Of a stretch of 33,484 nucleotides of DNA, positions 16,359 through 21,743 are shown piece by piece (the stretch's first letter is position 1; each line of letters opens with the position of its first letter). The notes below the pieces were generated by a model, which saw nothing but the letters and a program-made list of their open reading frames with translations, searched no databases and had not been told where the DNA came from. The stretch spans positions 1 through 33,484 of the forward strand of contig JAHJSR010000024.1 in assembly GCA_018830085.1 (NCBI GenBank). The letters are read 5' to 3'. This DNA comes from Patescibacteria group bacterium (GTDB lineage Bacteria; Patescibacteriota; Patescibacteriia; 2-12-FULL-60-25). Made by a program: the position numbers and the translations under genes.

Positions 16359-16387
16359 TTGACTTTTTATAAAAAAAGTGATAACTT
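16359..16387 (+). promoter_or_regulatory. Promoter of the 16431 CDS
   Basis: TTGACT, 17 nt, TAACTT. Confidence 0.55.
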
Positions 16388-16430
16388 AGTTAATCATCTT
16401 TTGACTATAACAAGTAGATGGGAGGATTGC

Positions 16431-16730
16431 ATGCCCTTTACATTTCGCCCTTTCCAGAAAATCGAAGATATGTGGCTGAATTTTTTGGCTAGTCAATTGG
16501 AAGCCGCAATTTACTCACAACCCACGGAACCGACGACAGCATTCCGGATCGCTCAAACCGCCTGCAGGACATACAAAAAAGCATCTGACCTACCTGGGGA
16601 TTTATTGGCATCAGCCTTGCTTTGGAGCATGGACAGAGCTAGTAAAGAAATGCTTCGCAAAAGGCAGCATGCGCAAAAAGAAGATACTTGGGAGGCACAA
16701 GCTCTTTCACCTACCGACCGTTTGGATTGA
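16431..16730 (+). CDS. Small hypothetical protein
   Basis: SD GGGAGG upstream of ATG 16431; the listed 16359 start lies in the -35 box. Confidence 0.6.
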   Translation: MPFTFRPFQKIEDMWLNFLASQLEAAIYSQPTEPTTAFRIAQTACRTYKKASDLPGDLLASALLWSMDRASKEMLRKRQHAQKEDTWEAQALSPTDRLD

Positions 16731-16754
16731 ATTCCATGCGGTTTTATTTTTTTG
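16717..16754 (+). terminator. Terminator with the TGA stop codon in the hairpin loop
   Basis: ACCGTTTGGAT-TGA-ATTCCATGCGGT (one mismatch, one G-U) followed by TTTATTTTTTT. Confidence 0.5.
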
Positions 16755-18030
16755 TAATTCTTAAAGATTCTGACCTAACTTTACGATGATAGTTGATCGC
16801 AAAACGATGGGACTCGTCTCGAACTTGAACTAAGATATCTTTATGCTTATTTAATTGTGGCGTTAATCCGGCAAAGGCTGGTGGAATTACTAACTCATCC
16901 TTTTTACGATCTGGACCCTTGGCTATGCCTATAATTGGGATTACTCGTGAAGTATTTAAGGATTGAATCACATCCATAGCCGCACTGACTTGACCCTTAC
17001 CGCCGTCAATCAAAATTAAATCAGGCCATTCCCAGCCTCGATCTTTATGTTTAAAACGTCTTTTTAAAACTTCTTTTAGACTTTTTGTATCATCGGGACC
17101 CAAAACTGTACGAATACGAAACTTTCGATATTTAGCCTTCTCCGGAGCTCCATGACGAAAAACCACCATAGAACCAACCGATGATGTGCCTGAAATATTA
17201 GAAATATCATAACCTTCTACTCTACCAAAGATCCCACCAGCTCCTCTTTGTTCATCGGTAATTTTTACATCATCTTTTGCCAGAACCGAAACATCGCGTA
17301 CATGCTCAAGGGCATATAAGCGATTACGCAAACTGGCTGCTTTTTCATATTTTTGATTTTTTGCAGCCGCTTTCATCTCTCGATTATAACGACTAATTAA
17401 TTCCGATCGCTTGCCATCAAAAAATGCCATCAAATCACGAATTATCTTATTATATTCAACTTTGGAAATTGCTTCTGTGCATACACCAGGGCATTGACCG
17501 AGGCTGGCATAAAAACATGGACGCTTTTGACCAGGAGCGCAGGTTGACCAAGGTATGGCTTTGCGAATTATGTCGAGCGCATTTCGTACAGCTCTTGATG
17601 AAGTAAAAGGTCCATAAACAGCTTTGTACTTTTTAGACGCCGAATCATCAATATCAGTAGCACGGAGTACATAAGGACGTGGATAATCTTCATTGGTTAT
17701 AACAAGATAGCTATAACTCTTATCATCTTTTTCCTTGATGTTGTAAAAAGGTTTATATTTTTTTATTAAATTAGCCTCCAAAAAAAGCGCTTCGATAGCC
17801 GTTGGCTGCTCTATATAGTCTATTGATTTGATATTTGAAACAAGTTGTTCTGTTTTTCTGTCACCCGGTCGTTGAAAATATGAACCCACCCTACGTTTTA
17901 AGGAAGTAGCTTTGCCAACATAAATAATGTCGCTTTTTGCGTTTTTCATTAAATAAACTCCCGGACAATCAGGTAGCTCATTGTTTTGAATTTTAATTTC
18001 CTTGGGAATCATATACAAAGTATCGCTCAT
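16744..18030 (-). CDS. uvrC: Excinuclease ABC subunit C, short form
   Basis: GIY-YIG (GVYLMKNAKSDIIYVGKATSLKRRVGSYF), UVR motif, RNase H-like EGYDISNISG...DLILIDGGKGQ...RDESHRFA; no HhH tail. Confidence 0.93.
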   Translation of the reverse strand: MSDTLYMIPKEIKIQNNELPDCPGVYLMKNAKSDIIYVGKATSLKRRVGSYFQRPGDRKTEQLVSNIKSIDYIEQPTAIEALFLEANLIKKYKPFYNIKEKDDKSYSYLVITNEDYPRPYVLRATDIDDSASKKYKAVYGPFTSSRAVRNALDIIRKAIPWSTCAPGQKRPCFYASLGQCPGVCTEAISKVEYNKIIRDLMAFFDGKRSELISRYNREMKAAAKNQKYEKAASLRNRLYALEHVRDVSVLAKDDVKITDEQRGAGGIFGRVEGYDISNISGTSSVGSMVVFRHGAPEKAKYRKFRIRTVLGPDDTKSLKEVLKRRFKHKDRGWEWPDLILIDGGKGQVSAAMDVIQSLNTSRVIPIIGIAKGPDRKKDELVIPPAFAGLTPQLNKHKDILVQVRDESHRFAINYHRKVRSESLRITKK

Positions 18031-18109
18031 CCTTGAAAGTACGTCCAGACTTTGACTTTTAAGTAAAATTTTGCTTGTATATAGTCAGTCCTTTGACTCG
18101 GGGGTAATA

Positions 18110-19168
18110 ATGAACAACTCGGCACAAAACAATCTCGCAAAATATACCCCAACTCTACAACAACTATGCCAAGACTATGGCTTTAAGGAAGAGGATGCAA
18201 AAAAATATCTAAAAAAATATATCGCCGGTAGAGTTTCGTCAGAAAGAGCTTGTCAGCGTCTCCGTGTGGTATCTCGTGAATTTAAAAGGGTTACGGCTGC
18301 AAGATTCCTCAAAAAAAATCCATTGGCCATTCAACTGCCGCTAGAGAATCTTCCTAGTGTTTTGAAAGTAATGCAGGAGTCGATGCTGCCTAGTGATGTG
18401 CTATTTTTGATTATGCGTTGCCCGTTTATCCTACTATGCACTCCTGAGTGCTTACAATTGAATTCACAATTGCTACGCGCCAAGCTTTACTCACAAGGGT
18501 TGTATGTGGGATTTATCAAGTACAGGCCGGAAATTTTTATCTTTCCACCCGAAGTACTACAAAAAAGATTGACTCAAACTTTTTGGGTGGGAAGCAAAAA
18601 AGATTTTTGGAGGCAAATCATGGGACTGCCTCGAAAGACGGACGAACCGCGAGTAATGCGAGCCATGGAAGCGAGTAAGATTGCGGAACGCATGGTCGCT
18701 AGAGGTGAATCCAAATACGCAGCAACCAACCTCTCAAGACACCTAGCAAGAATTTTTGGTGAAAGTGCGTTTACGGTTTATGAACTTTTTGAAGTGAATT
18801 GTTGGACGGCAGCCAATATCCAAGAGTTGGATAGAAATGATCGAAAGTGGAGAGAGGATCCAGCTCAATTGATTAGCAATGAGCGAGCCCTATTGCAAAC
18901 TGGACTCATGCCCACGATTGTAAGACAGTTACTACTCAAGAGATCGTTGTTCATGTATGTCCCTAAGGCAAATAGTTGCAGGATCATCAAGTTTTTCAGA
19001 AACAAAGGTTTTGATGACGATATAATATTTGCAATAGCCATGCGCAGACCAGGACTCTTTAATGCACCCATCATTGAAGTTCAGCGAGCTTATGATAAAG
19101 CTCAAAAAGAGAGAAAGGGACTTCTCTGGAATACTTGCAAAAGCGCGATCATCGAGACCGACTCCTAA
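18110..19168 (+). CDS. Helical-repeat protein with mTERF-like motifs
   Basis: Repeated pattern such as FFRNKGFDDDIIFAIAMRRPGLFNAP and MQESMLPSDVLFLIMRCPFILLCTP; start at ATG 18110 after GGGGGT. Confidence 0.6.
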   Translation: MNNSAQNNLAKYTPTLQQLCQDYGFKEEDAKKYLKKYIAGRVSSERACQRLRVVSREFKRVTAARFLKKNPLAIQLPLENLPSVLKVMQESMLPSDVLFLIMRCPFILLCTPECLQLNSQLLRAKLYSQGLYVGFIKYRPEIFIFPPEVLQKRLTQTFWVGSKKDFWRQIMGLPRKTDEPRVMRAMEASKIAERMVARGESKYAATNLSRHLARIFGESAFTVYELFEVNCWTAANIQELDRNDRKWREDPAQLISNERALLQTGLMPTIVRQLLLKRSLFMYVPKANSCRIIKFFRNKGFDDDIIFAIAMRRPGLFNAPIIEVQRAYDKAQKERKGLLWNTCKSAIIETDS

Positions 19169-19193
19169 GACGGAAAAAAATCCGTCTTTTATT
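19167..19193 (+). terminator. Intrinsic terminator overlapping the stop codon
   Basis: AAGACGGA-aaaaaa-TCCGTCTT then TTATTTT; the TAA stop (19166-19168) enters the stem. Confidence 0.65.
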
Positions 19194-21743
19194 TTACCTT
19201 TTTAAAACTCTTTTTAAATATTCTCCGGTGTAACTATCTTTAACTTGAGCCACTTCCTCTGGTGTGCCTTGAGCAACCAAGTTCCCTCCCCTATCACCAC
19301 CCTCGGGTCCGAGGTCGATAATCCAATCAGCTTGTTTAATAACATCCAAATTATGTTCTATGATGATTACAGTATTACCACGATCAGCTAATCGCTGGAG
19401 CACTTCTAAAAGTTGCTTTACATCATCAAAATGTAGACCAGTTGTTGGTTCATCTAAAATATAAATCGTGTGACCGGTATCACGTTTGGATAGCTCTGAA
19501 GATAATTTAACACGCTGCGCTTCTCCGCCTGACAAGGTGTTTGCCGGTTGACCAAGTTCGATATAACCCAAACCAACCTCTGTTAGAACTTTGGTACGAT
19601 CATGAATAGGTGGGATGTCTTTAAAAAAATCATTAGCTTCTTCAACGGTCATTTTTAACACATCATGAATTGTTTTATTACGATATTTAACTTCCAATGT
19701 TTCGCGATTAAAGCGTTTACCCTTACAAATATCACAAGGAACATAGACAGTTGGCAAAAAGTGCATTTCTATGGCAATTTGACCATTGCCTTCACAATGT
19801 TCACATCTACCACCCGGACGATTAAAAGAAAAACGGCCAGGTTTGTAGCCACGCATACGTGCGTCTGGAGTCATGGTAAAAAGCTCGCGAATATGAGTCC
19901 ACATACCAGTATAAGTTGCAGGGTTGGAACGCGGTGTACGACCGATCGGAGATTGATCGACATCAATAATTTTATCGACCCAGTCCATGCCTTTAATGGA
20001 TCCATGGGGTGCTGGCACGGCTTGAGCGGCATAAAGTTTTTGTGCCAAAGCCCTATAAAGAATGTCAATAATCAAAGTAGATTTGCCTGATCCGGAAACA
20101 CCGGTAACACAAACAAAACGTTTGAGTGGAATTTTGACATCAATTTTTTTAAGATTAAAAGCACTAGCTTTTTTAATTTCCAACCAGTTTTTTGCAGTTC
20201 CACGTCGCTTATCTGGCAAAGGTATTTTTTTATCACCACGTAAATATGCACAAGTAGAACTGTTTTTATCTTGCAGGACCTCTGGCATCGGTCCATGAGC
20301 AACAATATTACCACCATGCTTACCGGCCCCCGGACCAAAATCAACCAAATAATCTGATGCAGCAATTGTGTCTTCATCATGTTCCACAACAATAATTGAA
20401 TTTCCCGCATCTCTCAGTTTTTCTAAAGTTTCAACAAGTCGAGCATTATCACGTTGATGTAAACCGATTGTTGGTTCATCAAGTACGTATAAAGCACCAA
20501 CTAACTGAGATCCAATTTGAGAAGCCAAACGAATGCGTTGAGCCTCGCCACCGGAAAGTGAACCAGCAATACGATTAAGATTTAGATAATGAAGTCCTAC
20601 GTCTTGCATAAACTGCAAGCGAGCGTGAATTTCTTTAAGGATTGGTTCTGCAACCAATTCCTCATTGGCAGTAAGTTTTAAAGATGAAAAAAACTCCAAT
20701 GCTTGCTGGATTGTTAATGCAGTTAAATCAACAATATTCTTTTTATTCAATAAAACATGCAAAGCTTCGGGTCTTAAGCGCGCACCCTTACAGGTTGGGC
20801 AAAGCGTTTCAGAAAATAAAAACTCTGTTCCCAAACCATTACAATCAGGACAGGCCCCGTAAGGAGAATTAAAAGAGAATAAACGCGGTTCTATTTCGGG
20901 AAAAGAAAAATCATGTTCCGGACAAGCAAAACGCGCACTCATTAACTTTTCAGTTCCATCATCAAGAACAGCGATTACGGTTTCGTCGGCTCGATCCAAA
21001 GCGATTTCAACTGCCTCTACAAGACGTGTACGAAGGGGTTTGTTGTTTTCTATCGGCCAAGCGATTGGCACATGATCAACAATGAGTTCGATATTGTGAC
21101 GCTTATAACGTGCGAGCGGCACACGTTCACGTAGTGGATAAATTTTACCATTGACACGTACCTCGACAAATCCTGCCTCAAAAGCCTGTTGCAGTAATTG
21201 ATAATACTCACCTTTACGACCGCGTACAATGGGAGCGAGAATTAAAATTTCATTAGTGCTTTTTGATGTCTTGCGAGATTTAATTTTTTCCACATTGGAA
21301 TGAATTTCTATGGTCGATTGCAAAATATTATCCGCAATTTCGTCGATGGTCATTTTTCGAATCGGTTCACCACCAATTGGACAATGCGGCTTACCTACCC
21401 TGGCATAAAGAACGCGCATGTAATCATATAACTCGGTAATTGTAGCGACCGTTGAACGAGGATTGGAGCTATGAGCTTTTTGATCAATAGATATTGCTGG
21501 TGACAATCCCTCGATTTCATCAACATCCGGTTTTTTCATTTGACCTAAAAATTGCCTAGCATAGGCAGAGAGTGACTCAACGTAACGACGCTGGCCCTCG
21601 GCAAAGATGGTATCAAAAGCCAAAGACGATTTACCGGATCCGGATAAGCCCGTAAAAACAACCATTTTATTTCTGGGGATTTCTATGGATACATCTTTTA
21701 GATTGTGTTCGCGAGCACCTTTGATTGATATTGTATTTTTCAT
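19194..21743 (-). CDS. uvrA: Excinuclease ABC subunit A, compact form
   Basis: [35 protein letters not shown], two ABC signatures ([33 protein letters not shown]). Confidence 0.96.

Follow-up and report, generated by a model that had tools for sequence, protein, structure and literature searches.

A diverged mTERF-like gene family beside uvrC in a family of Patescibacteria

Results

The window analysed here is a stretch of 33,484 nucleotides, one contig (C10) of a 1.23 Mb Patescibacteria genome that is 96% complete. An open reading frame on its plus strand, at 18110-19168, starts with an ATG at 18110 behind a ribosome-binding-like GGGGG stretch (18100-18104) and encodes a protein of 352 aa with a pI of 9.8. 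The preliminary description had reported an mTERF-like helical-repeat protein here, and the frame exists as it described, with all three peptides that it quoted present in the translation. It had also placed the gene between "divergent uvrC and uvrA"; the frame does sit between uvrC (16744-18030, minus strand; 428 aa with GIY-YIG, UVR and RNase H domains) and uvrA (19194-21743, minus strand; 849 aa), but these two genes point the same way. It is the mTERF-like frame that diverges from uvrC and converges with uvrA, the end of which lies 25 bases to its right. The uvrC gene more likely starts at 18012, at a methionine (MIPK) common to its relatives, than at the annotated 18030, and the gap to the mTERF-like ATG is 97 bases (18013-18109) with the former start and 79 with the latter. 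Among named records, the UvrC genes nearest to that of the window carry the labels Candidatus Uhrbacteria or Patescibacteria group.

Between the converging mTERF-like frame and uvrA lies a stem-loop, AAGACGGA-AAAAAA-TCCGTCTT, with a T tail (19167-19196, plus strand). It is a likely terminator, a reading made plausible by its position between the two genes; the stem-loop search found one such structure against 1.3 expected in shuffles. On the other side of uvrC, between it and mraZ and opposite to both, we observed a small open reading frame of up to 123 aa (16359-16730, plus strand), for which a promoter match of the extended -10 type lies at 16359-16387.

The region between uvrC and the mTERF-like gene holds a promoter-like signal on the strand of the latter (18052-18080), made up of TTGACT at 18052-18057, TG at 18072-18073 and the hexamer TTGTAT at 18075-18080; the start predicted from it is near 18087. 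The arrangement TTGAC-N15-TG occurs on the gene strand in 10 of 11 intergenic regions of the family, with shuffles giving a mean of 0.05 and at most 2. Across the family, the TG is followed by a hexamer with T at both ends, which leaves 29-48 bases to the ATG. Promoters of the extended -10 type are common in the window's genome (58 matches in a pattern search versus 13 for the control), and most of these matches have A at the second base of the hexamer and at the sixth base of the -35 box, unlike the family signal, where A is never found at either position. For this reason, we infer that the mTERF-like genes have a putative conserved promoter that is weak. A possible uvrC promoter, TGGACG-17-GATACT (18019-18047, minus strand), is present in the same intergenic region as a consensus match only. 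In four other family genomes (loci L124, L127, L128 and L138), the uvrC and mTERF-like promoters, which point away from each other, have overlapping -35 boxes that form TTGACC-N5-GGTCAA-like inverted repeats.

A plain protein search against 96 relatives gave eight matches, spread over seven other genomes and almost all with proteins of larger size. A profile built from these matches (A3) recovered 13 genes, including that of the window, which are spread over 12 of the 41 genomes sampled from this Patescibacteria (CPR) family; with an enlarged profile (A4), a scan of 381 genomes from the class added one weak match, in G230 (E 9e-5). All 13 genes adjoin uvrC and diverge from it, in each of the 12 genomes, so the uvr neighborhood, which had been thought possibly coincidental, is no quirk of one genome. 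On the far side, uvrA is the next long gene in eight of the 12 genomes, and genus g14 has one extra gene in between; genomes without the mTERF-like gene often have uvrA and uvrC directly adjacent. One genome, G005, carries two family genes in tandem (L173; G005:C52, 180-2648), a short copy of 196 aa comprising the repeat block only and a long copy of 587 aa.

Where other genomes have the mTERF-like gene, G009, G019, G036 and G039 have more diverged frames that contain mTERF-like stretches and are likely kin of the family, with significance not reached for each. The sister genomes G002 (L132) and G003 (L134) have a different small frame between uvrA and uvrC, in the same orientation, of ~65 aa with hydrophobic, membrane-like stretches and the same type of promoter signal in front. 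In a UvrC tree, the mTERF-like gene is present in both deep branches of the Patescibacteria family, because of which one old arrival followed by several losses is a better fit than a series of insertions into a single site. The UvrC proteins of these genomes are 57-75% identical to that of the window, versus 17-25% for the mTERF-like block common to the family, and the protein has therefore evolved fast in a fixed location.

Most members (395-661 aa) comprise a block of ~157 residues, a linker that is long and rich in proline, and a conserved C-terminal domain with the pattern W..F...NPWL ... LRYR.NE ... KPYI.MLLEP.R..F..RL, for which no relatives were found in Pfam or the PDB. The window member is without this linker and this domain, and has extra repeats preceding the common block. 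These make up an N-terminal repeat block found in this member only (18236-18658, plus strand; residues 43-183), with about four 35-aa units and a weak internal match to the family profile. The block common to the whole family follows at the C-terminal end (18659-19138, plus strand; residues 184-343) and scores 174 bits with A4. In several family members the N-terminal region is acidic or neutral, versus the pI of 9.8 of the window protein.

The preliminary description had seen a repeated motif in the window protein, and the repetition exceeds chance. Nine pairs of prolines are spaced at 34 or 35 residues (shuffle mean 1.4; p = 0.0003 over all lags), a spacing in keeping with mTERF proteins, which are recognized by units of about 31-38 residues arranged in tandem or nearly so. 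The mTERF pattern as quoted in PMC11417379, with proline at position 8 and hydrophobic residues at 11, 18 and 25, occurs in four stretches (shuffle mean 0.6; p = 0.0016); other family members show it in its strict form only 0-2 times. The repeats of the window protein are irregular, and a generic BLOSUM lag test on its single sequence peaks at 35 with P = 0.9, which is not significant.

Taken alone, the window protein has PF02536 (mTERF) as its best Pfam match, over residues 86-171, with 13.7 bits and E = 0.029, below the curated mTERF cut-off of 23.1 bits. When the family profile A4 was run with hmmsearch against 177,635 PDB sequences, the top 11 matches were all mTERF proteins (mS93, 2.1e-7; MTERF1 entries, 4-6e-6; MTERF3, 3e-5; MTERF4, 0.012), and the next, unrelated match had an E-value of 0.45. 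The same 11 sequences lead after removal of the window row (E 5.7e-7 to 0.057), and a reversed-profile control gave no mTERF match in the PDB. The mTERF resemblance noted earlier is thus borne out at this level. With a profile made only from seven full-length relatives, the best PDB match is MTERF3 (E 0.0055). The PDB matches of the family profile fall mostly on the final two repeats of the family domain. In Pfam scans of single members, mTERF is the only recurring family, matching 5 of 13 domains with a best E of 0.001; further Pfam mTERF matches came from L005, a short L007 protein, L152 and L156. Single-sequence AlphaFold models have low confidence, with pLDDT 38 for the whole window protein and 52 for residues 43-154. 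PF02536 matches in G565, G612, G644, G682 and G703 were judged false on reading the sequences, as they fall in an ABC transporter, RuvA and a transposase.

Other mTERF-like proteins of Patescibacteria came to light in these searches. One, from a genome of the window's class (L033/L178; G230:C8:16856-17722), has 289 aa and passes the Pfam mTERF cut-off with 40.2 bits; no relatives were found in 285 other genomes. Comparing the family with this protein by hhalign gave a probability of 90.9% and E 1.1e-6, with 0.2% for the reversed control. The other, from a genome of another class (L035/L179; G557:C2, about 21.1-22.7 kb), is a protein of 518 aa with 122 bits for Pfam mTERF, a regular array of 33-residue mTERF units and a best PDB match to 8vd6, named CAP REPEAT. 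A search of 85 further genomes from its class gave no relatives of it, and its profile comparison with the family was weak (15.8%). Unlike the window protein, both pass the Pfam mTERF cut-off, and, unlike the present family, neither is beside uvrC in the stretches read.

Discussion

One of the main features of the family described here is its resemblance to the mTERF proteins (PF02536, SM00733), a class that includes MTERF1-4, the plant mTERFs and Tetrahymena mS93. Both have helical repeats of about 35 residues with proline and hydrophobic residues in the published register, and mTERF proteins are the only ones in the PDB that the family profile matches at significance. From these sequence comparisons, we consider homology between the family and mTERF very probable. 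The present proteins differ in being bacterial, whereas the known mTERF class is nuclear-encoded and organelle-targeted, in the Pro-rich linker and C-terminal domain that most members add, and in the location of their genes beside uvrC.

The preliminary description had held that a bacterial member would be unusual. It still is, but it is no longer unprecedented: papers from 2012 and 2014 stated that mTERF is absent from prokaryotes (PMC3414458, PMC3981765), and bacterial mTERF-like proteins are already known from a 2024 study in Nucleic Acids Research, which described some 40 of them under the name pTERF, with those assigned to a MAG being mostly from Bacillota (PMC11417379). Two of these, pTERF1 and pTERF2, are high-affinity binders of specific DNA, with a Kd of 1.87 nM for pTERF1 (PMC11417379). 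The present family is similar in being bacterial with mTERF-like repeats and differs in coming from Patescibacteria. Compared by the paper's description, pTERF proteins have regular tandem repeats, in contrast to the irregular ones of the window protein, which does have the P8/11/18/25 pattern that pTERF1 is without (PMC11417379). Our literature search found no paper joining the mTERF domain with Patescibacteria. What is new here is the Patescibacteria lineage, the family's own architecture and its fixed place beside uvrC.

As a whole, the best explanation, and in our judgment a probable one, is that the gene product is a bacterial protein of the mTERF superfamily that has diverged strongly, with its fold, binding and role read from its sequence and setting. 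Such a protein would be all-helical, with roughly eight 35-residue repeats that probably stack into a curved superhelix, and its basic surface would bind double-stranded or structured nucleic acid. In organelles, known mTERF proteins, which bind DNA or RNA, have roles in transcription, termination, replication or ribosome assembly (PMC3981765, PMC6085346). Nucleic-acid binding in general is predicted for the window protein, and we rate it as fairly likely, on the grounds of DNA binding by pTERF1 and pTERF2, the divergent arrangement with uvrC and the pI of 9.8, which is compatible with such an activity. A conserved nucleic-acid surface is less certain, given the ~17-25% identity of members to the block of the window protein and the acidic or neutral N-terminal regions of several. 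As for its role, the protein may be a weakly expressed DNA-binding factor that acts on the short divergent region common to its gene and uvrC, either as a local regulator or as a transcription roadblock. Local control of uvrC through this putative target is the likeliest single role, and is put forward tentatively; the head-to-head placement can instead reflect history.

Several other explanations bear on this reading, beginning with the gene itself. Close homologues of the window protein were absent from direct searches of named genome, viral, phage and plasmid collections, as might be expected of a spurious frame or antisense artefact, and neither PADLOC nor NCBIfam gave a match. Weak PHROG and Pfam matches of the window protein to phrog_664 and DUF2119 were dropped, being absent from the results of other family members. 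The open frames of 12 other family members in the corresponding position, together with the gene's own promoter-like signal and ribosome-binding site, leave the chance of such an artefact negligible; the existence of the family refutes it in practice, and since 13 members, the window's included, share this place and the promoter-like signal is conserved, the frame is a real gene. That the mTERF resemblance is convergent, in a helical-repeat protein of other origin (such as TALE-like, HEAT or PPR-like), is quite unlikely. The similarity does lie in short helical repeats, which can converge, with the single sequence under the Pfam cut-off and its fold a prediction. Against this, the reversed-profile control was empty, and no other repeat family, a confident match to which would have spoken against the mTERF assignment, reached a useful E-value in the Pfam or PDB searches.

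Alternatively, an mTERF-like protein could bind ribosomal or other structured RNA, serving ribosome assembly or stability, with the place beside uvrC being a mere settling site. MTERF3, MTERF4 and mS93 bind RNA of this kind, mS93 being a mitoribosomal protein and MTERF4 a mitoribosome assembly factor. This main rival is somewhat unlikely; it accords with mS93 as the best PDB match, with the match to MTERF4, and with the simplified ribosomes of CPR bacteria (PMC10582724), whereas a core ribosome factor would be expected to evolve more slowly and to be kept more evenly than a gene detected in 12 of 41 genomes across both deep UvrC branches, a distribution that implies several losses or undetected divergence. 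An accessory role in excision repair, in which the protein would supply DNA binding missing from a short UvrC without a helix-hairpin-helix, is less probable by far. A C-terminal helix-hairpin-helix was sought in the window UvrC and not found, the UvrC of the group stopping after the RNase H domain, and the mTERF-like gene keeps its place beside uvrC. However, it diverges from uvrC with no common operon, and UvrC is just as short in genomes of the group without the gene (L043 and L044, ~430 aa; L132 and L134). Replacement of a missing UvrC domain is for this reason unlikely, and we rejected the idea of compensation for it. Only slightly more credible, and still very improbable, is a bacterial mTERF-type roadblock that would link transcription to nucleotide excision repair by stopping or sensing RNA polymerase at chosen sites, with its dosage tied to that of UvrC through the shared divergent promoter region. 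If this link were true, it would be an mTERF function that predates organelles or is independent of them.

Under the preferred reading of a diverged bacterial mTERF member, the Patescibacteria lineage backs up the pTERF report of 2024, which came from a different bacterial group, and the family presents a case of mTERF-like genes that have kept a single position next to uvrC even as the protein diverged almost beyond recognition. This raises the question of whether the organellar family has bacterial roots or whether the repeat has spread more than once. The family also offers small natural proteins for testing what mTERF repeats bind, and its conserved place beside uvrC provides a concrete first target for binding assays.
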